The position numbers were made by a program, and so were the translations under genes. Under the pieces are notes generated by a model. It searched no databases. It was given only the letters and a program-made list of their open reading frames with translations, and was not told the origin of the DNA. From positions 62,001 through 126,000 of the forward strand of contig NZ_LMUS01000004.1 in the NCBI RefSeq assembly GCF_009765835.1: a stretch of DNA of 64,000 bases, given 5' to 3'. The DNA comes from Granulicella sp. L56. Lineage in GTDB: Bacteria; Acidobacteriota; Terriglobia; Terriglobales; Acidobacteriaceae. Shown here in pieces: positions 13,838 through 24,243 of the stretch. Positions within the stretch are counted from its first letter, which is position 1. Each line of letters opens with the position of its first letter.

Positions 13838-16800
13838 ATGAAATACCTTTTACGCACCATCCAGTGGTTCACCGTCCTCTGCGTTCTAAGTCTTGTAACG
13901 CCTCACGCCCTCTTCGGGCAGGGGCTCGCTCGCATCTCGGGAACGGTAGCTGACTCCTCGGGTGCGGCGATTCCGAATGCCACGGTGATAGCCACTCGGC
14001 TCAGTACGGGAGACAAAACCACGATTACATCCAACGGTGCAGGCGATTATGTCTTCCCGTCCCTGGCCCCAGCCGAGTACAGCCTCGGCGTAACGGCGAG
14101 CGGCTTTGCCGGGTTTCTGCAGAAGAGCGTCGTTCTGCAGGCCGACCAGTCGATTACGGTCAATGCGACGCTGACGGTAGGCAGTGACACGCAGACCATC
14201 AATGTCGACTCCGCCCCGCCGCAGGTGGACACCACGACCGGCACCCTATCGCAGGTCATCGACGAAAAACGGGTGAACGACCTACCCCTGAACGGCCGCA
14301 ACGCCGCCGCGCTGACAACGCTGGTGCCGGGTGTGGTCGTGGCTCCATCGGCCAATATCGACCAGGGACAGACCAAGACGTTTCCGGTGGTCGCAGCGGT
14401 CACTATCAATGGAACCCGTGCCAACCAGGTGAACTACATACTGGACGGCGGCAACAATGTCGATGAATACACTAACGTCAATGCTCCTTTCCCCATGCCC
14501 GACGCGCTGCAGGAGTTCAGCGTGCAGACGAGTAACTACAACGCCGAGTATCGCCAGAATGCGGGCGGAGTGGTGAACATCATCACCCCGCAGCGGCTCG
14601 AATCAATTTCATGGAGACGCGTTTGAATATCTGAGGAACCGGGTATTCAATGCAGCGAACTACTTCAGCTATGTCGGAACCCAGAAGACAGTCGATCCGC
14701 TCAAGCGTAATCAGTTTGGCGGCACCATCGGCGGCCCGGTCATCATTCCGCACCTCTACAACGGCGCAGACAAAACTTTCTTCTTCTTTGGCGTGCAATC
14801 GACACGGCTCCGCACCAATGGCGTGGGCGGCACGGCATTCCTTCCCACTCCGGCGCAGCTTGCGGGAACCTTTACCGGGGTGTCGAGCCCGATCTTGAAT
14901 CCCAAGACACTGCTTCCCTACCCATGTACTCCCACAGGAGCCACGTTTACCTGCACCGTCAATCCGAACGACTATAACCAGTCGTCGCTGGCGCTGTTGA
15001 AGTATCTGCCGACGATCAGCGGAGCCGATGGAACGTACCAGTTCTTCCGCCCAAGCAAGCAGAACTACATCGAATACACGGGCCGCGTCGATCAAGCGCT
15101 GGGAACGAACGACCATCTGAGCCTGCGCTACTTCTACGACAGCTTCGACAATGCGGGGGTACTCGACACGACGGACCTGCTGAGCTACTCCGATCAGGCC
15201 GCGATTCGATATCACAATGCGCTTATCTCCGAGACGCACACCTTCAACGCTCATCTGTTGAACAACTTCAGCCTGAGCTATCAGATTGAAGATGCCTCGC
15301 GCGGACCGCTGGCGGGCGCGCCGGATGTGAATGATCTGGGCGTAAACGTCTGGCAGCCTGCCTTCAAGCAGATCAATCAGATTCAGGTGACGAACTTCTT
15401 TACGATTGGCGACAATCCGGCAGCAAGTTTCCGCCGCAATAACTACACGCTGGCCGACGATCTGCACTGGGTGCTCGGCAGTCACACGATGAGCTTCGGG
15501 TTTCATGGAGAGCTGGCCAAGGTCGATGTCGACAATCAGTTTCAGCAACCCGGTATCTTCCAGTTCAACAGCAACGCTTCCATCTCGAACCCTTTGGCCG
15601 ACTATCTATTGGGCGGGCTGACGAACTTTCAGCAAGCCTCGGGACAATACTTCAACAACCGCTATCATGTGACCGGCTACTACGCTCAGGACAGTTGGAA
15701 GGTGAGCCGACGGCTGACACTGAACTACGGAATCCGCTATGAACCCTTCGCGCCGCAACATGAGAACCATGAACGAGAGGGAATGTTCAGCCCGGCTGCG
15801 CGCGCTGCCGGGACTGTCTCGACGACGCATCCCACTGCGCTTGCCGGCTTGCTGTTTCCTGGCGACGCAGGATTTGTCGAGAACATGGTACATCCCATCT
15901 ACTCTCACTTCATGCCTCGCGTTGGATTTGCATTGGATGTATTTGGTGATGGAAAGACCAGCATCCGCGGCGGCGCCGGACAGTTTTATGACACGCGCCT
16001 GCCGGGAGTCTTCGACAACATCTTCGCCAACTCGGTGCCGTTTGTCGCCTCCGTCAACGTGCAGTTTTTGCCGACGGCGCTGGCTGATTTCTCGAACCCC
16101 TATGCGAGCGTAGCGGGCGGCAATCCGTTCCCTGCTCCGCAGCCTCCGTCGGCAAGCTACTTCACGACGGCGAACTATCAGTCGTCGAGCTATAGTACGT
16201 TCGATCCAACGAAGTTCCGCCTGCCGGTGACGTACTCCTGGAACCTTGCGGTGGAGCAGCAGTTGACCGACAAGCTTTCCAGCCGGATCGCCTATGTTGG
16301 ATCGCGCAGCAATCACCAGTATGTGCCGTCGGACATCAATCCGACCTATAACCAGGGGCCGAACGTAGGCAAGCGCGTCTACTATTCGCCGAACTTATTG
16401 CAAAACTACACGCAGGCAATCGCGCAGGTGGATACAGGCGGAAACGCAATCTACCACTCGCTACAGGCCTCGCTGCAGAACCGGGTGAGCACAGGGCTTA
16501 CTCTTTTTCTCAAGTACACCTGGTCGAAGGCGATTGATAACTTCCCGTTTGGCGCATCGGCTACCGCCGTCGTACCGGGTTCGGGATATTCGCTTCCGGT
16601 CTATGAACCTCACTTCAAACGGCTGGACAGTGGTCCTTCGGACTACGACCACCGCAACGTGGTGTCTCTCTCGTACGTGTGGATCTTGCCGAAGCTCAGC
16701 AAAGGCAATGCAGCAGTTCGATATATTGCGAACGGCTGGCAGACCAATGGCATCTTCGCCTTCCGCAGCGGCGATCCTCTCACTGTGACCGGCGCAGGCA

Positions 16801-17201
16801 ACAGCGGAACCAACCTGGGTCGCGAGCGCGGCGTGTGGAATAGTCAGAATCCTTATGGTGGCAACGCCTGCGGAGGGGTCGGCACTGCATGCAAGTCGTA
16901 CCTGAACACTGCCAACTTCTCGACCAATCCAAGCTACACGGTGAACCTGCCGTTGTCGTACGGCAATATCGTGAAGGGCAGCTTCGTCGGGCCGCAATAT
17001 ACCGACTGGGACGTCAGTGTCGTGCGCTACTTCCCCGTGCATGAGGCTGTGCAGTTGCAGTTCCGCGCGGAGTATTTCAACGTGCTGAACCACACCAACT
17101 TCGGCGACCCGAATGCCTCGGTGACGAATGGAGCCTTTGGCCGGGTCACTTCGGCCAGCGATCCGCGCATCGGCCAGATGTCGCTGAAGCTATCGTTCTA
17201 A
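13838..17201 (+). pseudogene. Oar-type TonB-dependent receptor interrupted by a frameshift
   Basis: Together the two frames encode about 1120 residues. Frame one (13838-14626) has a signal peptide, a carboxypeptidase-regulatory-like domain (RISGTVADSSGAAIPNATV) and a plug domain (LPLNGRNAAALTTLVPG, LDGGNNVDEY, NAGGVVNII). It should then read the family phrase for a Ser-Gly-Ser/Asn block, but one extra base within 14588-14591 throws it out of frame and it stops at 14626. The frame resuming at 14592 continues the protein without loss (SGSNQFHGDAFEYLRNRVF) through the beta-barrel to the typical end at 17201. An ORF start at 14793 is internal, not a real start. It lies beside GH10 and GH3 genes, so an oligosaccharide receptor role is likely. 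It may be a true mutation, programmed frameshifting or a sequencing error at a C4 run. Confidence 0.85.
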
Positions 17202-17220
17202 CCGCTTGAGCATTAGGCCT

Positions 17221-17261
17221 GGGCATGTGGTGCAAAGAAAATCTCTTTGCACCACATGCCC
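17221..17261 (+). terminator. Long perfect hairpin after the TonB receptor
   Basis: An 18-base perfect stem (17221-17238 with 17244-17261) with a 5-base loop, followed by TTCACTTTCATT. It ends the receptor transcript or acts as an RNA-stability element before the xylanase gene 46 bases further on. Confidence 0.8.
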
Positions 17262-17306
17262 TTCACTTTCATTCGGCTTAGCTGGTGACGGCATGGGAGA
17301 TCGACG

Positions 17307-18548
17307 ATGGCAACACGAAGAGAGATATTGGCCGGAGGATTAAAGGCCGCGGTGGCAGTAGTGCTTTCGCGAACGGCAATCGACAAGAGACTACTGGCAC
17401 AGGTCGCGCAGCATCCTGACGATATGACGCTGAACAGTGCGCCGAGGCTGCAGACCTTTCCGCCGCCTGACTTTGGAACGATACCGAAGGTGCTGCCGAA
17501 GGAAGCGAAGGCGGTTGCAGGCGCTGGATCATTGAAAGCCCACGCTGCACGGCACCAATTAATTTCGGGAGCCGCCGTGGTCGTGCGCTCGCTCGGCAAC
17601 GATACCGCGCTGGCGGAGTTAATCCTCGATCAGTGCGGCATCCTCGTACCCGAGGGCGAACTGAAGTGGCGCGCCCTTCGGCCAGCACAAGACAAGTTCG
17701 ACTTCTCCCAGTCCGACGCACTCTTCGCCTTCGCGGCGGAGCATCATTTGCTGGTTCGTGGGCACACGCTCGCGTGGCATAACAGCGTGCCCGATTGGTT
17801 GATGGCCGCGCCCGCAAGTCTGGATGTGCGGACATTGTTTGTCGAGCACATTCGCACTGTGATGGGGCGATACCGAGGACGAGTGCATTCGTGGGATGTC
17901 GTGAACGAAGCGATCCTGCCGAAGGACGCGATGCCCGGCAACTTGAGAAAGTCCTTCTGGTATGAGCGCGTAGGCGCGGACTATATCGACCTTGCCTATC
18001 ACACGGCGCGCGAAGCAGACCCGAAAGCCAAGCTCACTTACAACGACTACGGCGTGGAGTACGAGAACGCAGAGGACGAGGAGCGCCGACGTGCGATTCT
18101 TGAGTTGTTGCGTGGAATGCAGGCGCGCAGAGTGCCCTTGGATGCGGTTGGAATTCAGTCGCATATCAAGGCAGCTTCGCCATCGATCGTCGGCAACGGT
18201 TTAGCAGATTACATGGAAGCAATTCGCGCAATGAAGCTCGAGGTTTACCTCACCGAGCTCGATGTCAACGAGCATGATATTGCGTCGAATGAGATCGCGG
18301 AACGCGATCGCCTGATCGCTCAGACATATAAGAACTTTCTCGATGTCGCGCTGAACAATGCATCGGTGAAGCTGGTGTTGACGTGGGGCATCAGCGATCG
18401 CCGAACGTGGTTGAATGACGGACCGACGCATCACCGCAAACAGCCGAATCGGCCGCAGCGTTCCCTTCCCTTCGATCCGGAGTATCGGCCAACGCCAGCG
18501 TTTTTTGCCATTCGCGAGAGCTTTGACAGCCGCAGCGCCAAAAGGTGA
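17307..18548 (+). CDS. GH10 endo-1,4-beta-xylanase
   Basis: A 413-residue glycoside hydrolase family 10 enzyme, which cuts internal beta-1,4 bonds of xylan. The N-terminus (TRREILAGGLKAAVAVVLS) is a twin-arginine signal, so it is probably exported folded. Catalytic residues are clear: acid/base Glu201 in DVVNEA and nucleophile Glu317 in YLTELDVNE. Other GH10 blocks are present: GHTLAWHNSVPDWL, LTYNDYGVEYEN, VGIQSHI and TWGISDRRTWL. It lies between the TonB receptor and the GH3 gene on the same strand (45 bases to the latter). Confidence 0.95.
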   Translation: MATRREILAGGLKAAVAVVLSRTAIDKRLLAQVAQHPDDMTLNSAPRLQTFPPPDFGTIPKVLPKEAKAVAGAGSLKAHAARHQLISGAAVVVRSLGNDTALAELILDQCGILVPEGELKWRALRPAQDKFDFSQSDALFAFAAEHHLLVRGHTLAWHNSVPDWLMAAPASLDVRTLFVEHIRTVMGRYRGRVHSWDVVNEAILPKDAMPGNLRKSFWYERVGADYIDLAYHTAREADPKAKLTYNDYGVEYENAEDEERRRAILELLRGMQARRVPLDAVGIQSHIKAASPSIVGNGLADYMEAIRAMKLEVYLTELDVNEHDIASNEIAERDRLIAQTYKNFLDVALNNASVKLVLTWGISDRRTWLNDGPTHHRKQPNRPQRSLPFDPEYRPTPAFFAIRESFDSRSAKR

Positions 18549-18593
18549 ACAAGCGGCAACATTCAGCAACTCATTTTTAGCCGGGCGCGCGAC

Positions 18594-21299
18594 ATGCGAG
18601 CTCTCTACCTACAAGGAACGGTCCTCTGCATGGCTTTCGTCACCACCCTCTTTCTATTTTTTGTTCTTACTCCTGCTTGCCTCCTTGCTGCTCCGCTGTC
18701 TTCGCACAGCCAGAACAAGGCTCCTCTCTATCTTGATTCCAGCGCTCCTCTGCAACAGCGTGTCAACGATCTGGTCGGGCGCATGACGCTCGAAGAAAAA
18801 GTCGCACAGATGCAGAACGAAGCGCCGGCAATTCCGCGCCTGCATGTTCCTTCCTATGACTGGTGGAATGAAGGCCTGCACGGCATGGCGCGGTCCGGCT
18901 ATGCCACCGTGTTTCCGCAGGCGATTGGACTGGCTGCGACTTGGGACCCAAAATTAATTGGCAGAGCCTCCGATGTCATCTCAACGGAGGCGCGTGCAAA
19001 GTACAACGAAGCACAGCGCCTGGGAAATCACTCGATCTTTTACGGCCTGACTATCTGGTCGCCGAACATCAACATCGTTCGCGATCCTCGCTGGGGACGC
19101 GGTCAGGAGACCTATGGGGAAGACCCTTTCCTGACGGGTGAGATCGGCAGCGCCTTTGTGCGCGGGCTGCAAGGCAACAATCCCAGATATCTGAAGACGG
19201 TGGCTACAGCCAAGCACTTCGCTGTACATAGTGGGCCGGAGTCGGAGCGGCACAGCTTCGATGCCGCGATCTCTCCCCACGACCTTGAAGACACCTACCT
19301 GCCCGCATTTCGCGAGCTGGTGACGCAGGCACAGGTGGACAGCGTGATGTGCGCGTATAACGCAGTCGATGGCGCACCTGCGTGCGCCAACACCATGCTG
19401 TTGCAACAGAAGCTGAAGCGTGACTGGGGATTCCATGGCTTTGTAGTCTCAGATTGCGCAGCAATCTCGGATGTCAGCGTTGGTCATAAGTATGCTCCGG
19501 ACCTGGAACACGCGGCTGCTGTATCCGTGAAGGCCGGTACCGACCTGAGCTGCGGCAAGGAATATGCGGCGTTGGCGGGGGCGGTGCGCCATCATCTGAT
19601 TCCAGAGTCAGACATCGATACAGCCGTGCGTCGCTTGTTCACGGCGCGGTTTCGGCTCGGCATGTTCGATCCTGCTGCCTCGGTGTCATTCAATCAAATT
19701 CCATTCTCGCAAAATGATTCACCTCAACATGCTCAGTTTGCGCTCGAAGCGGCGCGTGCTTCGTTGGTGCTCCTGAAGAATGACCATCGCATATTGCCGC
19801 TGCGTTCCGATCTGAGAAGCATTGCGGTGATCGGGCCAAATGCCGACACACTGCCAGCGCTCGAGGGCAACTATAACGGCGTGGCCTCGCACCCAGTAAC
19901 TCCGCTGGAGGCTCTGGAGAAGCGAATGCAGGGCCGCGTGCGATACGCGCAGGGATCGCCGTATGTCGATGGTGCCTCCCTGCCTGTACCCGAAACCCTA
20001 TTGACCATAGATGGAGCAGCCACGCACGGTCTGCGTGGAGAGTATTTCTCCGATACAGATTTCAAGAGCGCTCCAGTAGTGACCCGTGTCGATCGCAGAA
20101 TTGACTTCGACTGGAATGGCGCACCACCTGCACCCGGCATCTCGGCCAAAGCGTTTGCCGTTCGCTGGACAGGCATGATGACCGCCCCCGTGCCCGGCAC
20201 GCTCGACATGGGCTTCTCCTTCGCGCATTGCAGCACCTGCGAGGACGCGGAGACGATCAAGGTATGGCTCGACGGCAAGCAGGTGTATGCCTACGATCAC
20301 GCAGCAACGCATGGCAGGCGCGCTCCGGCAACGCCTTTTCAACTGGCGTTTGCCGACACCAGGCCGCATCGTTTGCGCATTGAATACACCCACCAAGCGC
20401 CTCACTTCGGAGCTGGGCTTACTCTGAACTGGAGACCGCCGCTGGACGTGCTGCGCCAGCAAGCGGTTGAGGCTGCGTCCAAGTCAGATGCTGTCGTGCT
20501 GTTTCTGGGACTGAGCCCTGAACTCGAAGGCGAAGAGATGCCGATTGCGGTGACAGGATTTCGCGGAGGAGACCGCACCTCGATTGAGCTGCCGGACGCG
20601 CAGCAGCAACTGGTCTCTGCACTCGCCGCCACGGGCAAGCCGATTGTCATGGTGCTCATGAATGGAAGCGCAATCGCGCTTGGCGAGGCGGCGAAGAAAG
20701 CGGATGCCATTCTCGAAGCGTGGTATCCAGGACAAGCTGGCGGAACGGCGATTGCGGAGACTCTCTTCGGAGAGAACAATCCTTCGGGGCGATTGCCGAT
20801 TACGTTCTATACGAGCACGGCGCAGCTTCCGCCGTTTGATGACTACAGCATGAGCGGCCGAACTTATCGTTACTTCAGCGGCGAACCGCTTTACGGCTTT
20901 GGATATGGGCTCAGCTACACGCGTTTCGGTTACTCCGCAGGCAAGCTTTCTGCCTCGACTGTGCAAGCGGGACAACCGCTCAAAGTGCAGGTAGAGGTGA
21001 AGAATGAGGGTGATCGCGACGGCGCGGAGACGATTGAGGCTTATCTGATTCCTGAGCATTCGGTTGGAGCGCCGCTGCGCGAATTAGTCGGCTTCCAGAA
21101 GACGCAGCTTCGTCGCGGTGAGAGCAAGACGGTGCGGATGACATTGACGCCGCGCGAGTTGAGTCTTGTCTCCGCAGACGGAACGCGAAGCGTGCAGCAG
21201 GGCGAATATAAGCTTTTTGTTGGCGGAGGCCAACCTGAACAATCCAATGGAGTTATGATGCGATTTCGAATTTTGGGCCACTCCGATTTGCAGCCCTGA
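18594..21299 (+). CDS. GH3 beta-xylosidase/beta-glucosidase with PA14 insert
   Basis: A 901-residue glycoside hydrolase family 3 enzyme releasing terminal sugars from oligosaccharides. A signal peptide ends near residue 33. The TIM-barrel contains WSPNINIVRDPRWGRGQETYGEDP, KHFAVHSGPE and the nucleophile Asp287 in VVSDCAAI. The second domain is interrupted by a PA14-like carbohydrate-binding insert (about 480-610, GLRGEYFSDTDFK to LTLNWRPP). A fibronectin-III-like domain closes the protein (FGYGLSYTRF onward). The ATG at 18594 has no Shine-Dalgarno; the ATG at 18630 has AAGGA 12 bases upstream and also gives a good signal peptide, so either may be used. Xylosidase activity is inferred from the GH10 neighbour. 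Confidence 0.92.
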   Translation: MRALYLQGTVLCMAFVTTLFLFFVLTPACLLAAPLSSHSQNKAPLYLDSSAPLQQRVNDLVGRMTLEEKVAQMQNEAPAIPRLHVPSYDWWNEGLHGMARSGYATVFPQAIGLAATWDPKLIGRASDVISTEARAKYNEAQRLGNHSIFYGLTIWSPNINIVRDPRWGRGQETYGEDPFLTGEIGSAFVRGLQGNNPRYLKTVATAKHFAVHSGPESERHSFDAAISPHDLEDTYLPAFRELVTQAQVDSVMCAYNAVDGAPACANTMLLQQKLKRDWGFHGFVVSDCAAISDVSVGHKYAPDLEHAAAVSVKAGTDLSCGKEYAALAGAVRHHLIPESDIDTAVRRLFTARFRLGMFDPAASVSFNQIPFSQNDSPQHAQFALEAARASLVLLKNDHRILPLRSDLRSIAVIGPNADTLPALEGNYNGVASHPVTPLEALEKRMQGRVRYAQGSPYVDGASLPVPETLLTIDGAATHGLRGEYFSDTDFKSAPVVTRVDRRIDFDWNGAPPAPGISAKAFAVRWTGMMTAPVPGTLDMGFSFAHCSTCEDAETIKVWLDGKQVYAYDHAATHGRRAPATPFQLAFADTRPHRLRIEYTHQAPHFGAGLTLNWRPPLDVLRQQAVEAASKSDAVVLFLGLSPELEGEEMPIAVTGFRGGDRTSIELPDAQQQLVSALAATGKPIVMVLMNGSAIALGEAAKKADAILEAWYPGQAGGTAIAETLFGENNPSGRLPITFYTSTAQLPPFDDYSMSGRTYRYFSGEPLYGFGYGLSYTRFGYSAGKLSASTVQAGQPLKVQVEVKNEGDRDGAETIEAYLIPEHSVGAPLRELVGFQKTQLRRGESKTVRMTLTPRELSLVSADGTRSVQQGEYKLFVGGGQPEQSNGVMMRFRILGHSDLQP

Positions 21300-21450
21300 A
21301 CTCGGACTTTTTGGCTGAAAAACCGAGGTATCCCCCACCCCCGGACTAAAGTACCCAAAGTCTTCGAAAGAAAGGACATAGGTCCAGACCTGGTCTTCGA
21401 GTCCGGTTTCGGGAAGGGGGCGTGGGAGGCCGGGGTTTGTCAAGTTTCCG
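21300..21450. repeat. Gap with a possible dispersed repeat (AAAGTCTTCGAA type)
   Basis: No gene seen. At about 21352-21372 the sequence reads CCAAAGTCTTCGAAAGAAAG, and a very similar phrase recurs at 43241-43261. Two copies in one window suggest a small dispersed element. Confidence 0.4.
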
Positions 21451-21864
21451 TTACTTGTTCTGGAGCTGGAGGGTCATTCGGGTGAGGTCCATGAAGTTGC
21501 GACCCTCGATCACTTGGCCGTCGCGGCAGGTGATGAAGGAGGCGCCGGGGAAGGTGGTCTTTTTGCCGGTGGCGGGAAAGCCTAGGCCATCGCCGTTGTG
21601 GATCATCGAGCAGGTCCAACGGATGGCGACGCGGTCTCCCTCGGCGATGAGGTCGTCGATGTCGATGTGGATGTTGGTGAAGGCGCTGTGGAACTGACGG
21701 TGGATGGTTTTGAAGCCTTCCGGGCCGATGAGGACGGAGTCGGCGTCGGGAAAACCGTAGGCTTTGCCCTGCGGGTGGAAGAGTTCGTCGATGGTTGCTT
21801 CGCTGCCTTGATTCCAGACTTCTTCAAACCAGCGTCTTGCGAGGGCCCTGTTTTGCTCTGACAT
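21451..21864 (-). CDS. SnoaL-like ester cyclase family protein
   Basis: A 137-residue alpha+beta barrel protein of the NTF2/SnoaL superfamily. The start MSEQNRALARRWFEEVWNQGSEATIDELFHP is typical of the polyketide-cyclase-like branch, as are AEGDRVAIRWT and the end GQVIEGRNFMDLTRMTLQL. These small proteins isomerise, cyclise or hydrolyse small molecules, but the substrate cannot be told here. It stands alone, tail-to-tail with the GH3 gene. Confidence 0.85.
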   Translation of the reverse strand: MSEQNRALARRWFEEVWNQGSEATIDELFHPQGKAYGFPDADSVLIGPEGFKTIHRQFHSAFTNIHIDIDDLIAEGDRVAIRWTCSMIHNGDGLGFPATGKKTTFPGASFITCRDGQVIEGRNFMDLTRMTLQLQNK

Positions 21865-22120
21865 AGTGACACCTCATGCGGGAAAGATTAGCACGCGGCG
21901 CAGTCGGTGGGATGAGCGTCGTTTGAGTCTTCGCCATGTCCTGCTTAGGGGCGCAGCTTTGGAGGGGTGCGATGGGCGGCCAGATATTCGTTGAGGCTGG
22001 CGTAACCGTAGTTGCTTCGGAAAAGCTCGCTTTGATGAGGGGGATGTGGGCCGTTTGCCATCCACCTGAGCTAATGACAGTGCGAGCTGCGCTTGAGGTC
22101 GCAACCCGCATGTCCTTGAT

Positions 22121-22315
22121 TTACCTACTGCGCCCGGCTCCATTTCGAGCTGGGCGAGTTAGCGTGTAGCTACTGTTTGGCTTTTGGGTAGGGGGTAAAG
22201 TGTGTCCTCGAGGTACAGTAACCTCTGGTCCACGCCCCCCTCTTGGTCCGATAGTTGTATACTCACCGGACCTGGGAGCCGTAGTACCTGGGGGAAGATT
22301 ACTTATTTTAGCCAT
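22121..22315 (-). CDS. YjzC-like small protein
   Basis: A 64-residue protein whose pattern (PPGTTAPRSGEYTTIGPRGGRGPEVTVPRGHTLPPT) matches my recollection of the YjzC family of short proteins: PGTxAPxSGxY, a Gly-rich turn, EVTVxxGxxxPPT. Function of the family is not established. AGGAG lies 9 bases before the ATG at 22315, which supports it as a real gene. It is at the edge of an AT-richer patch, downstream of a 40-residue ORF on the same strand. Confidence 0.7.
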   Translation of the reverse strand: MAKISNLPPGTTAPRSGEYTTIGPRGGRGPEVTVPRGHTLPPTQKPNSSYTLTRPARNGAGRSR

Positions 22316-22368
22316 ACGAATAGTCTCCTAATTCAGCTTGATTATTATTGCCAGTTGATGTTGAATCA

Positions 22369-22388
22369 GGGGCTGAGGTACCAGCCCC
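22369..22388. other. Short GC hairpin between two small ORFs
   Basis: GGGGCTG (22369-22375) pairs with CAGCCCC (22382-22388) over a 6-base loop. It lies 34 bases past the stop of the 40-residue ORF on the minus strand. There is no T-run, so it is either a weak terminator or an RNA-processing or stability element. Confidence 0.45.
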
Positions 22389-22421
22389 CGATGTTAAGGA
22401 GTGCGTCAACACTCCGGGCGA

Positions 22422-22544
22422 CTACTTCTTCGTACACTTGCCAATGGGCCAAGACTTTAACCCATAGGCATAAGCGTCATAGGTAATGCCGTTACGCCAG
22501 TGCTTGAAGTACCGACGAAACGTTACTGCTTCCACATTCTTCAT
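22422..22544 (-). CDS. Hypothetical 40-residue protein
   Basis: A short frame starting MKNVEAVTFRRYFKHWRNG and ending IGKCTKK, basic and aromatic (several Tyr, two Trp). GAGGAG stands 6 bases before the ATG, the best ribosome site in this part of the window, which is the main reason to call it. It is bracketed by hairpins at 22559-22586 (just upstream of its ribosome site) and 22369-22388 (downstream). I do not recognise the family. A DNA- or RNA-binding peptide would fit the composition, but that is inference. Confidence 0.5.
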   Translation of the reverse strand: MKNVEAVTFRRYFKHWRNGITYDAYAYGLKSWPIGKCTKK

Positions 22545-22558
22545 GTGGCCTCCTCAAG

Positions 22559-22586
22559 TGGCAGAAGAGCCGAACCTCTTCTGCCA
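22559..22586. other. Perfect hairpin before the 40-residue ORF
   Basis: An 11-base perfect stem (TGGCAGAAGAG, 22559-22569, with 22576-22586) and a 6-base loop, a few bases upstream of the Shine-Dalgarno of the minus-strand small ORF. It could be a leader structure affecting translation, or the end of an upstream RNA. Confidence 0.5.
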
Positions 22587-22655
22587 TTTGCCGTCCGAAT
22601 AGGCCCGACAAATATTAATCTCCGTGGCTGCATTGGATCGTGAAGCCATAAATAT

Positions 22656-22700
22656 AACGATCGTTGAACATCGTACACACACTTTACATTCTGTGTACGA
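22656..22700 (+). promoter_or_regulatory. Inverted repeats in the promoter of the HTH-ParA gene
   Basis: AACGATCGTT (22656-22665) is a perfect 10-base palindrome. Just after it, TCGTACACA (22671-22679) faces its exact complement at 22692-22700, with centres 21 bases apart, about two helical turns. They lie 20-65 bases before the GTG start of a protein with its own DNA-binding domain, so autoregulation, or a partition-site-like role, is likely. Confidence 0.5.
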
Positions 22701-22719
22701 GTAGCGTAAATTAACTTCT

Positions 22720-23796
22720 GTGAACAAGTCAATGCATAATCCCGAAGCAGACGAGGTTTCACTCCTTGGCGTGTCCGAAATTGCCGACCTACTTGCCGTA
22801 AGCAAGCAGACTGTTAGCAACTGGCGCACGAGAGATGAAGCGTTCCCGAAGCCTATGGCGGATTTGAAGTCCGGCCCCGTTTGGATGCGTAACGAAATTG
22901 TGATCTGGGCTCAAGCAAACGGGCATCGTCTTCAGAAGACTGAAGAGGTTAAGCCCAGCGCCAAAACACCACGAAAAAAAGCCTGCGTTGTGGCCGTAAT
23001 GAACGCAAAGGGTGGCGTAGGTAAATCGACAGTTACCATCAATCTCGGTTGGTACTGCTATTCGCGCTTTCAAAAGAAGGTTCTTCTTGTAGATTTGGAC
23101 CCTCAATTTAATTTGAGCCAGTATGCACTCGGGAGCGACGAATACGAAAAATTAGTGCGCGCCAAAAAGCCAACTATATCCACTATTTTTGCGAATGGGT
23201 CGTCGAAAGTCGGAAAGGAAGCCGTTAATCAGATCAGAGCGTCACGCGCAGGCGGAAAATTGGATCTTATCCCTTCGGATTTGGATTTAGCTTGGGTTAC
23301 GCGGGATGGATATTTCAAAGACGTGATGCTCGACAATTATTTGAAACACACTATTGGCAAAGATAACTACGATCTGATTCTTATAGACTGCCCGCCTACT
23401 GACTCCATGTTGACAGACGCGGCTTATTCAGCAAGCGATTTTTTGTTGATTCCGGTTCGACCAGAATTTCTTCCTGCAATCGGGTTGCCCCTTATAGATC
23501 GATCCCTCCATCGTTTTCGCGAACACAAACCCGATTCGAATGTTCAAGTCGCTGGAATTGTCTTAAATGGGGTTGTTGAGAGTAAACCGGAATATAAACG
23601 ATCTAAGGCTGACATACTTAAAGCTTCAAAAGTTTTTAATTGGCCCATGTTTCAGACCGAGTTAAGCGCCTCTGAGTCATACCCGAAAGGATCTCGATTA
23701 GGTTTACCTATTTTTCTGACGAATCATGCACGGTGGGAAAAAGTAACAAACTTTTCTAGTTTTGCAAAGGAGTTTGCAGAAAGGATATCCCTGTGA
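22720..23796 (+). CDS. HTH-domain ParA-family ATPase
   Basis: A 358-residue fusion. Residues 14-62 form an AlpA/MerR-like helix-turn-helix (GVSEIADLLAVSKQTVSNW, then VWMRNEIVIWA). Residues 88-358 are a ParA/MinD-type ATPase with deviant Walker A KGGVGKST (97-104), VLLVDLDPQFN, and a Walker B-like LILIDCPPTDS. ParA proteins move DNA or protein cargo using ATP-dependent DNA binding; several carry an HTH that represses their own promoter. GTG start at 22720 (an ATG at 22732 is the alternative). The gene is clearly AT-richer than its surroundings, and overlaps the next gene by GTGA. No ParB, replication or phage gene is nearby. Confidence 0.88.
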   Translation: MNKSMHNPEADEVSLLGVSEIADLLAVSKQTVSNWRTRDEAFPKPMADLKSGPVWMRNEIVIWAQANGHRLQKTEEVKPSAKTPRKKACVVAVMNAKGGVGKSTVTINLGWYCYSRFQKKVLLVDLDPQFNLSQYALGSDEYEKLVRAKKPTISTIFANGSSKVGKEAVNQIRASRAGGKLDLIPSDLDLAWVTRDGYFKDVMLDNYLKHTIGKDNYDLILIDCPPTDSMLTDAAYSASDFLLIPVRPEFLPAIGLPLIDRSLHRFREHKPDSNVQVAGIVLNGVVESKPEYKRSKADILKASKVFNWPMFQTELSASESYPKGSRLGLPIFLTNHARWEKVTNFSSFAKEFAERISL

Positions 23797-24203
23797 CGAA
23801 AAAACAGCTAAGTATGCTCCAGCGCCTATCCGATTTGCTTTCGACAAACAGCGTTCGCGATTGGGCTTTTGTGTTGTCCGAGATCGATCCGACAATAACG
23901 GCTGATCGCATTTCCAAAATCAAGACAAAAATTAAAGCTCGTATCCGCGATGAAGAAGGTAAACAGCCAGATAACGGCCTGCACAAATTCGTAAAAACTC
24001 GCGCTAAATTTCCTGCTTCCCAAGAAGATACGGCTATAAGAGAATTCATCTTGCAGGTGCAGAGACCCTCCGAGAAATTTAATCGACCTTCAGGTGAAGA
24101 ATTTTCTAAATGGCTTAACATAATCAGCGCCAAAGAGGGACCAATAGATAAATCCCGGAAAACCACGCCTAAGACTTCCAGCCGAAATGCGAAAAAACGT
24201 TAG
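23793..24203 (+). CDS. Unknown partner protein of the HTH-ParA ATPase
   Basis: A 136-residue, Lys-rich protein starting at a GTG that overlaps the ParA stop by 4 bases, so the two are translated together. The N-terminal 60 residues look helical (QLSMLQRLSDLLSTNSVRDWAFVLSEI); the tail is a basic, Ser/Thr-rich stretch ending RNAKKR, as in proteins that touch nucleic acid. I recognise no family. In ParA systems the second gene usually encodes the centromere-binding or cargo adaptor protein, and that is the best guess. It shares the low GC of its partner. Its last two codons and stop lie inside a hairpin that terminates nrdJ from the other strand. Confidence 0.75.
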   Translation: MTKKQLSMLQRLSDLLSTNSVRDWAFVLSEIDPTITADRISKIKTKIKARIRDEEGKQPDNGLHKFVKTRAKFPASQEDTAIREFILQVQRPSEKFNRPSGEEFSKWLNIISAKEGPIDKSRKTTPKTSSRNAKKR

Positions 24204-24230
24204 GCGCTATAAATGCTAGCGCCTAACGTT
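24190..24230 (-). terminator. Intrinsic terminator of nrdJ overlapping the partner gene's stop
   Basis: A perfect 14-base stem (24196-24209 with 24217-24230) with a 7-base loop. On the minus strand it is followed at once by TTTTTT, so it is a textbook terminator for nrdJ. On the plus strand it has no T-run but contains the last codons of the ParA partner. Confidence 0.85.
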
Positions 24231-24243
24231 GGCAATTCATAAT

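Follow-up and report, generated by a model that had tools for sequence, protein, structure and literature searches.

ParA ATPases are textbook segregation motors. Among the described systems closest to the locus considered here, the type Ia partition ATPases have an HTH-ParA layout and repress their own promoter, according to the available part of PMC9178275. The same source describes ParI, an orphan ParA encoded in a genomic island of Pseudomonas putida, whose destabilising effect on IncP-7 plasmids depends on its Walker A motif. GiPD474, a single ParA-fold (AAA_31) protein from the immunity region of a Gifsy prophage, confers phage resistance, as described in the accessible text of PMC12724215. 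Here, we analyse a chromosomal gene pair that is probably an orphan ParA-adaptor unit of mobile-element origin, repressed by its own product. Relatives of its ATPase are found in bacterial viruses and in chromosomes, with a small partner gene as neighbour, and this setting hints at a role in mobile-DNA conflicts rather than in plasmid segregation.

The gene pair and its chromosomal site

The window, by which we mean the whole 64-kb stretch of DNA analysed, belongs to a chromosome whose gene content looks acidobacterial. It contains the following features (residues are those of the focal ParA):

21934-24243: variable segment; colinearity with close relatives ends at about 21933 and restarts at about 24244
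22656-22665: 10-bp palindrome AACGATCGTT, a possible operator element
22671-22679 and 22692-22700: arms TCGTACACA and TGTGTACGA of a 9-bp perfect inverted repeat with a 12-nt spacer, judged from its sequence a candidate operator for the ParA HTH
22683-22712, plus strand: promoter-like TTTACA-18-TAAATT, with its -35 box between the inverted-repeat arms and its end 7 nt before the GTG
22720-23796, plus strand: HTH-ParA ATPase gene, open reading frame of 358 aa with a GTG start
23793-24203, plus strand: partner gene, open reading frame of 136 aa, Lys-rich, with a GTG start
about residues 15-65: HTH, from profile search (HTH profiles at 12-83, borderline scores)
residues 95-104: deviant Walker A motif NAKGGVGKST
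residues 125-129: DLDPQ
residues 222-226: IDCPP

A first-pass annotation of this DNA had read a ParA-type ATPase overlapping by GTGA a 136-residue Lys-rich protein. Both reading frames were verified, as was the overlap, in which the ParA stop and the partner start share GTGA at 23793-23796 in the coordinates of the frames. The pair is also AT-richer than its flanks, as had been claimed, with a GC content of about 0.45 (ParA 0.458, partner 0.44) versus 0.58-0.63 in the two measured flanks (0.581 and 0.627), and a GC3 of 0.457 and 0.438 versus 0.631 and 0.842. Two small minus-strand open reading frames lie upstream of ParA, at 22121-22315 and 22422-22544. The product of the former is a 64-aa Pro/Gly-rich protein that may resemble YjzC-type proteins, and the 40-aa product of the latter has no match in Pfam.

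The ATPase itself is clear. It matches AAA_31 in Pfam (E 1.2e-30, residues 90-269, 107 bits against a cut-off of 27) and phrog_164, 'ParA-like partition protein', in PHROGs (E 6e-49, residues 7-356). Together with this AAA_31 match, the KGGVGK[ST] motif with its signature and catalytic lysines, kept in all three HTH-type sequences aligned, places it among the ParA/MinD deviant Walker A ATPases. The fused AlpA/MerR-like HTH proposed earlier is recovered less firmly: PF07022 scores 23.3 bits against a cut-off of 22, HTH_17 stays under its cut-off and an excisionase-type PHROG matches at E 7.4e-7. PADLOC-DB 2.0.0 returned only weak HTH or P-loop matches for the ParA (best E 1e-6) and none for the 136-aa partner.

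Both the palindrome and the 9-base inverted repeat of the earlier reading are present upstream; the 21 bases it gave between their centres in fact separate the midpoints of the two inverted-repeat arms, and the palindrome centre lies 25 bases from the inverted-repeat centre. Together, a palindrome of 10 nt and an inverted repeat of this kind occur in 5 of 3,196 80-nt windows taken at steps of 20 along the 64 kb, a count that includes overlapping windows of the focal site itself. No matching repeats were found upstream of the ParAs of L016 and L017, the closest HTH-bearing relatives among those listed. The promoter-like match is not above chance (2 such sites versus a shuffle mean of 2.8); since it ends 7 nt before the GTG, the message may be leaderless or nearly leaderless.

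The pair sits beside an nrdJ-like ribonucleotide reductase gene, at a place taken up by other genes in close relatives. The nrdJ-like DNA adjoining the unit is present in 55 of 60 genomes of the genus, and the flanks beside nrdJ were compared in 12 relatives (L205-L216). The nearest relative, L205, is colinear with 14318-21933 and again from 24245, L216 is colinear with 21447-21910 and again from 24244, and the other ten share little or no left flank with the focal stretch. Between the colinear parts, both L205 and L216 have a RAYT-type transposase (read by eye), accompanied in L205 by a gene for a 571-aa protein and in L216 by one for a DUF4238 protein (33.3 bits against a cut-off of 27). ParA stands next to nrdJ in 0 of the 12 flanks. 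Given these breaks in colinearity and the other genes found in relatives, the locus is variable, and the position next to nrdJ is possibly a hotspot for accessory genes. By eye, the genes beside nrdJ in the 12 relatives are mostly different from one another.

The same genome has a second ParA match elsewhere, beside genes read as ParB and RsmG. In the window, no ParB was recognised by eye among the open reading frames at 12-36 kb, and canonical parS was absent at up to 3 mismatches; the whole genome also gave none at up to 1 mismatch, so that this search has no positive control, and non-canonical sites are invisible to it. The variable site and the second ParA beside the genes read as ParB and RsmG agree with the idea of an orphan HTH-ParA with a translationally coupled partner, carried by the chromosome, as does, within the limits of that search, the lack of a canonical parS in the window. 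The suggestion that the pair is possibly mobile is consistent with the variable site and with the phage relatives of ParA described below.

Relatives of the ATPase and their partner genes

The unit is rare among close relatives: the focal ParA was matched at E≤1e-20 in 3 of 150 relatives and at E≤1e-30 in 2 of 396 genomes of the phylum, own genome included in each case. Among the matches listed, the closest HTH-bearing ParAs are those of L016 and L017, with 45% and 42% identity, and the other close ones (29-47% identity) are without HTH. The relatives' loci are the best 80 by query similarity from each of the viral and genome collections, and counts based on them are not prevalence figures. 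In a tree of 134 ParA sequences (duplicates at 90% removed; quick method with SH-aLRT and a midpoint root), the focal ParA groups with L016 and L017 (96, starred) inside a 19-row clade (99, starred), and thus within the clade of partner-bearing ParAs. A match to the partner profile lies directly behind ParA in 17 of the 18 non-focal rows of this clade, and in the remaining row, L027, a contig end cuts the locus; L032 was labelled by an all-ORF match, the focal row by hand and L027 as without partner. One starred level further out, the set comprises 61 rows, of which 53 are labelled with partner, the focal row among these. Over the tree, the partner label is clustered, with 6 changes versus 42.3 in shuffles. 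Another branch of HTH-ParAs (L012, L013, L014, L015, L098, L100 and L101) comes from plasmids, viral contigs and other Acidobacteria. Here ParA is followed by a small protein with the conserved C-terminal segment 'LKDIVAEYGMD..KLV.KWK', which the partner profile does not recognise.

The gene after ParA starts between -4 and +3 nt from the ParA stop in all 18 loci inspected out of 24 (all except L021, L022, L027, L030, L032 and L034), and the gap is at most 3 nt in 78 of 80 partner loci. A 17-row partner profile found matches in 19 of the 20 genomes searched. Fifteen of the 20 were already in the profile, and of the other five, four match at the ParA locus; the L034 match lies on another contig, and the L027 fragment at the contig end scores E 2e-4. 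When each row was left out in turn, 16 of the 17 were recovered at E≤1.4e-7 (Z 1e4), the exception being the focal row (0.21). An iterated profile built without the focal row converged on 80 of the 159 open reading frames behind ParA in these best-ranked loci, near-identical phage loci included. Searched over 24,216 open reading frames, it gave 90 matches at E≤5, namely the 80 directly behind ParA, one at the same position in L032 and nine more at E≥0.29. Partners from the distant phages fall into phrog_6264 or phrog_12497, two PHROGs of unknown function, and have a K-S-R core in common. With the focal row included, the partner profile matched 7 of 396 genomes of the phylum at E≤0.01: besides the own genome, G332 and G358 strongly and four weakly. 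In G358 (L218), the unit has decayed: its partner is intact, but only a 107-aa remnant of ParA is left.

For the predicted fold of the L018 partner (pLDDT 81.5), Foldseek retrieved nothing at E≤0.001 from PDB or BFVD. A likeness to the C-terminus of T4 endonuclease VII was discarded, because its VIA Z of 5.2 over 54 residues is under the meaningful level for helical models; the matched part presumably belongs with the LEM/SAP helix-loop-helix motifs. Sequence searches of PDB with the partner and third-gene profiles returned nothing convincing.

Behind the partner, 55 of the 80 partner loci carry a third co-directional open reading frame of one family. In an alignment of 34 third proteins, L006 and L026 having been added by eye, Arg86 and His142 are invariant (34/34) and Glu90 nearly so. 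One of the 34 passes the Pfam cut-off for DUF5677, which we take to be HEPN. The Lactococcus phage PLg-TB25, used as an independent check, carries ParA, partner (E 6.4e-13) and third gene (E 2.5e-27), all annotated as hypothetical. No third gene was found in the 16 listed loci of the focal ParA clade, nor behind the 136-aa partner, nor by a search of the own genome, for which there was no positive control. Third-family frames also occur in four loci without a recognised partner (L007, L042, L051 and L074), which suggests a still more divergent partner class. MauJ/DzbB-like genes lie beside the unit elsewhere (DzbB in L034, E 4.8e-13; L029, E 1.9e-6), and a neighbour in L018 matches MauJ just under the cut-off.

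Does the 136-aa protein belong to the partner family? It had been called unplaceable, and indeed it matches no ParB or other family convincingly in Pfam, PADLOC, PHROGs or NCBIfam (best E 0.11 in PHROGs and 0.029 in NCBIfam). Among 100 relatives it was found in its own genome only, and no plasmid or phage match appeared at E≤1. The full partner profile built without the focal row gives it E 4.7e-5 in a single test, with 2 of 2,000 shuffles scoring higher, and hhalign aligns it over residues 1-35 only (E 0.0022, probability 12.8). By eye, a D-W-x-x-V motif in this N-terminal match is common to the 136-aa partner, L016 and L017, and BLASTP against the L016 partner gives E 0.022. The iterated profile scores it at 5.0 bits versus 5.3 for the best of 78 non-member frames. 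With the core partner profile it falls to -3.3 bits, a score that is reached by 4,048 of 5,000 shuffles and reached or exceeded by all 58 scored non-member downstream frames. Pairwise similarity to the relatives' partners was rejected as proof: shuffle p ranges from 0.002 to 0.97 over 15 partners, and z medians are alike (members -0.04, non-members -0.10; best member 5.6, best non-member 3.2). The protein is predicted to be helical at low confidence, and its model (pLDDT 57.1) is too poor for a fold search. It is therefore the partner by position and by the kinship of its ParA, possibly also by its N-terminus, and homology to the partner family is not shown. Of the expectation that both genes occur together elsewhere, the part that holds concerns the ParA clade and the partner family (17 of 18 other rows); membership of the 136-aa protein itself is not supported by the core profile.

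Genomic setting and possible function

Among the PHROGs matched by 128 proteins encoded around 26 viral loci, those of integrases and repressors come first, in a ranking made with no control. L004 lies between genes read as phage spike and tail-completion genes, with a baseplate protein as its neighbour, L006 lies by eye between terminase- and portal-like genes, and the gene row of Streptococcus phage Javan1 reads integrase, unannotated partner, ParA, repressor. The three-gene unit of E. coli is present with a query coverage of at least 80% in 16 of 5,426 genomes and with any match in 68. In the regions read, it stands beside a prophage integrase and a LexA-family repressor in two, beside an integrase and P2-like tail genes in one, and in two others at the paoD locus or by IS elements near a DUF262 gene. 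That the relatives sit in phages and prophages favours an accessory role in mobile elements. Enrichment in defence islands was considered and dropped: 247 PADLOC families among 139 clade-neighbour proteins versus 123 among 135 near control ParAs, counts inflated by overlapping methylase models, make no clear excess, with at most 3 proteins per family in the clade versus at most 4 in the control. The clade set has one L034 gene replaced by its neighbour, and the control set is 135 of 143 chosen proteins, 4 long ones among those left out. As the comparison gives no defence-island support, the odds for interference are kept modest. Leads noted by eye are SIR2/HerA-like genes at L011, a Cas9-like gene at L024, methylase genes at L019 and L031 and an HNH gene at L028. 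We know of no phage or plasmid phenotype for any member of the focal ParA clade. No description of a ParA-partner-third gene module was met in the literature texts available, and ParA is not found in the accessible parts of VarioGold, Vassallo 2022 and Rousset 2022.

The reading that we tentatively prefer, at a probability of about 0.42, is that the focal pair was gained by horizontal transfer and represents a two-gene branch, with HTH, of a wider set of orphan ParA-adaptor modules. Such modules would be carried by phages, prophages, some plasmids and variable sites in chromosomes, and would most likely serve to interfere with elements that compete with them. In the mechanism that we infer, ParA-ATP would bind DNA non-specifically and act as a switch, by analogy with type Ia ParAs (PMC9178275, available part). 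The small partner would be made 1:1 from the coupled operon, dock on ParA through its N-terminal helix and, as a regulator or adaptor, stimulate ATP turnover or release. Through its HTH, ParA would act on the palindrome and inverted repeat to repress the promoter of the unit, and in the phage branch the third protein, with its invariant Arg...Glu...His, looks like a possible effector. The benefit may be interference with a superinfecting phage or plasmid, an idea drawn from the phage setting together with the precedents of GiPD474 (PMC12724215) and ParI (PMC9178275), as far as the accessible texts describe them. A broader version, which we hold doubtful, is an uncatalogued family of mobile-element defence composed of ParA, an adaptor with a Lys-Ser-Arg core and a phage Arg...Glu...His effector (HEPN/DUF5677-like), of which the focal pair would be an effector-less, HTH-autoregulated chromosomal offshoot with a remodelled partner.

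The main rival, somewhat unlikely in our view, is the partition-like or cargo-positioning cassette proposed at first, with ParA on the nucleoid and the partner tying a DNA site or a protein cargo to it. The upstream repeats at 22656-22700 could be such a site, the ParA motifs are intact, the HTH-ParA layout is that of type Ia in the available text of PMC9178275, the small partner is coupled and phrog_164 is named a ParA-like partition protein. However, these repeats are two short ones only, the pair occupies a variable place in the chromosome where no replicon was seen, no cargo gene is common to the loci by eye, and relatives lie in prophages with integrases, which need no partition while integrated. 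Less probable still is incompatibility or silencing of the ParI type, in which the orphan ParA would jam the partition apparatus of plasmids entering the cell, with the partner as an accessory. ParI causes loss of IncP-7 plasmids and needs Walker A (PMC9178275, available part) and the focal site is likewise chromosomal and variable, but a conserved partner beside the ParA relatives would be superfluous for plain competition. Nor do we find it at all likely that the pair is a decaying remnant, no longer functional, in which ParA persists and the partner core is lost. The focal partner is indeed short (136 aa versus 163-197 aa in relatives) and fails the core profile, and the 107-aa ParA remnant of G358 offers a precedent; yet both frames are open, the 4-nt overlap is kept and the ParA motifs and operator-like repeats are intact.

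If true, a recurring ParA-partner(-third gene) module without ParB in prophages and variable sites would extend the ParA family to mobile-element conflicts and supply a defined, testable operon. As a divergent single-genome case, the focal pair offers a less favourable start than the phage operons. Since the ParA-fold prophage protein GiPD474 is already reported, in the accessible text of PMC12724215, to block phages, the question is now directly testable.

Comparison with known systems

With the type Ia partition ATPases (P1 ParA, F SopA class), the focal pair shares an N-terminal HTH (borderline scores) fused to a deviant Walker A ATPase, repeats resembling operators in the promoter region and a small coupled downstream gene. 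It differs from them in its chromosomal variable site, in a 136-aa partner without family match and in having no recognised ParB and, in the parS search that had no positive control, no canonical parS in the window. In McdA/McdB carboxysome positioning, too, a ParA-type ATPase has a small partner that is no relative of ParB; the signature lysine is missing from McdA according to the available part of PMC9178275, whereas the focal ParA has KGGVGKS, and no cargo operon lies beside the focal pair. Compared by description only, ParI is also an orphan ParA at an acquired chromosomal site, but the available text of PMC9178275 mentions no partner for it, and the focal ParA has one. GiPD474, again compared by description, is a ParA-fold AAA_31 ATPase at a mobile-element accessory site, and differs in being described as a single gene (coordinates 2,768,985-2,770,070, that is 361 aa, in the accessible text of PMC12724215). 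Salmonella phage SE1 gp23 (L249) was rejected as a stand-in, as it is not GiPD474. This ParA-like protein of 357 aa has a Walker motif KGGVSKT near its N-terminus and a C-terminal extension, and gave no partner or third-gene match; its gene sits between those of a CI-like repressor and sieB. The phage ParAs with phrog_6264 or phrog_12497 partners differ from the focal pair by the third gene, carried by most of their loci and not by the focal one, and by a partner that the profile recognises, as it does not the focal partner, but they belong to the same wider ParA clade (53 of 61 rows labelled with partner) and, like the focal pair, have the partner directly behind ParA.
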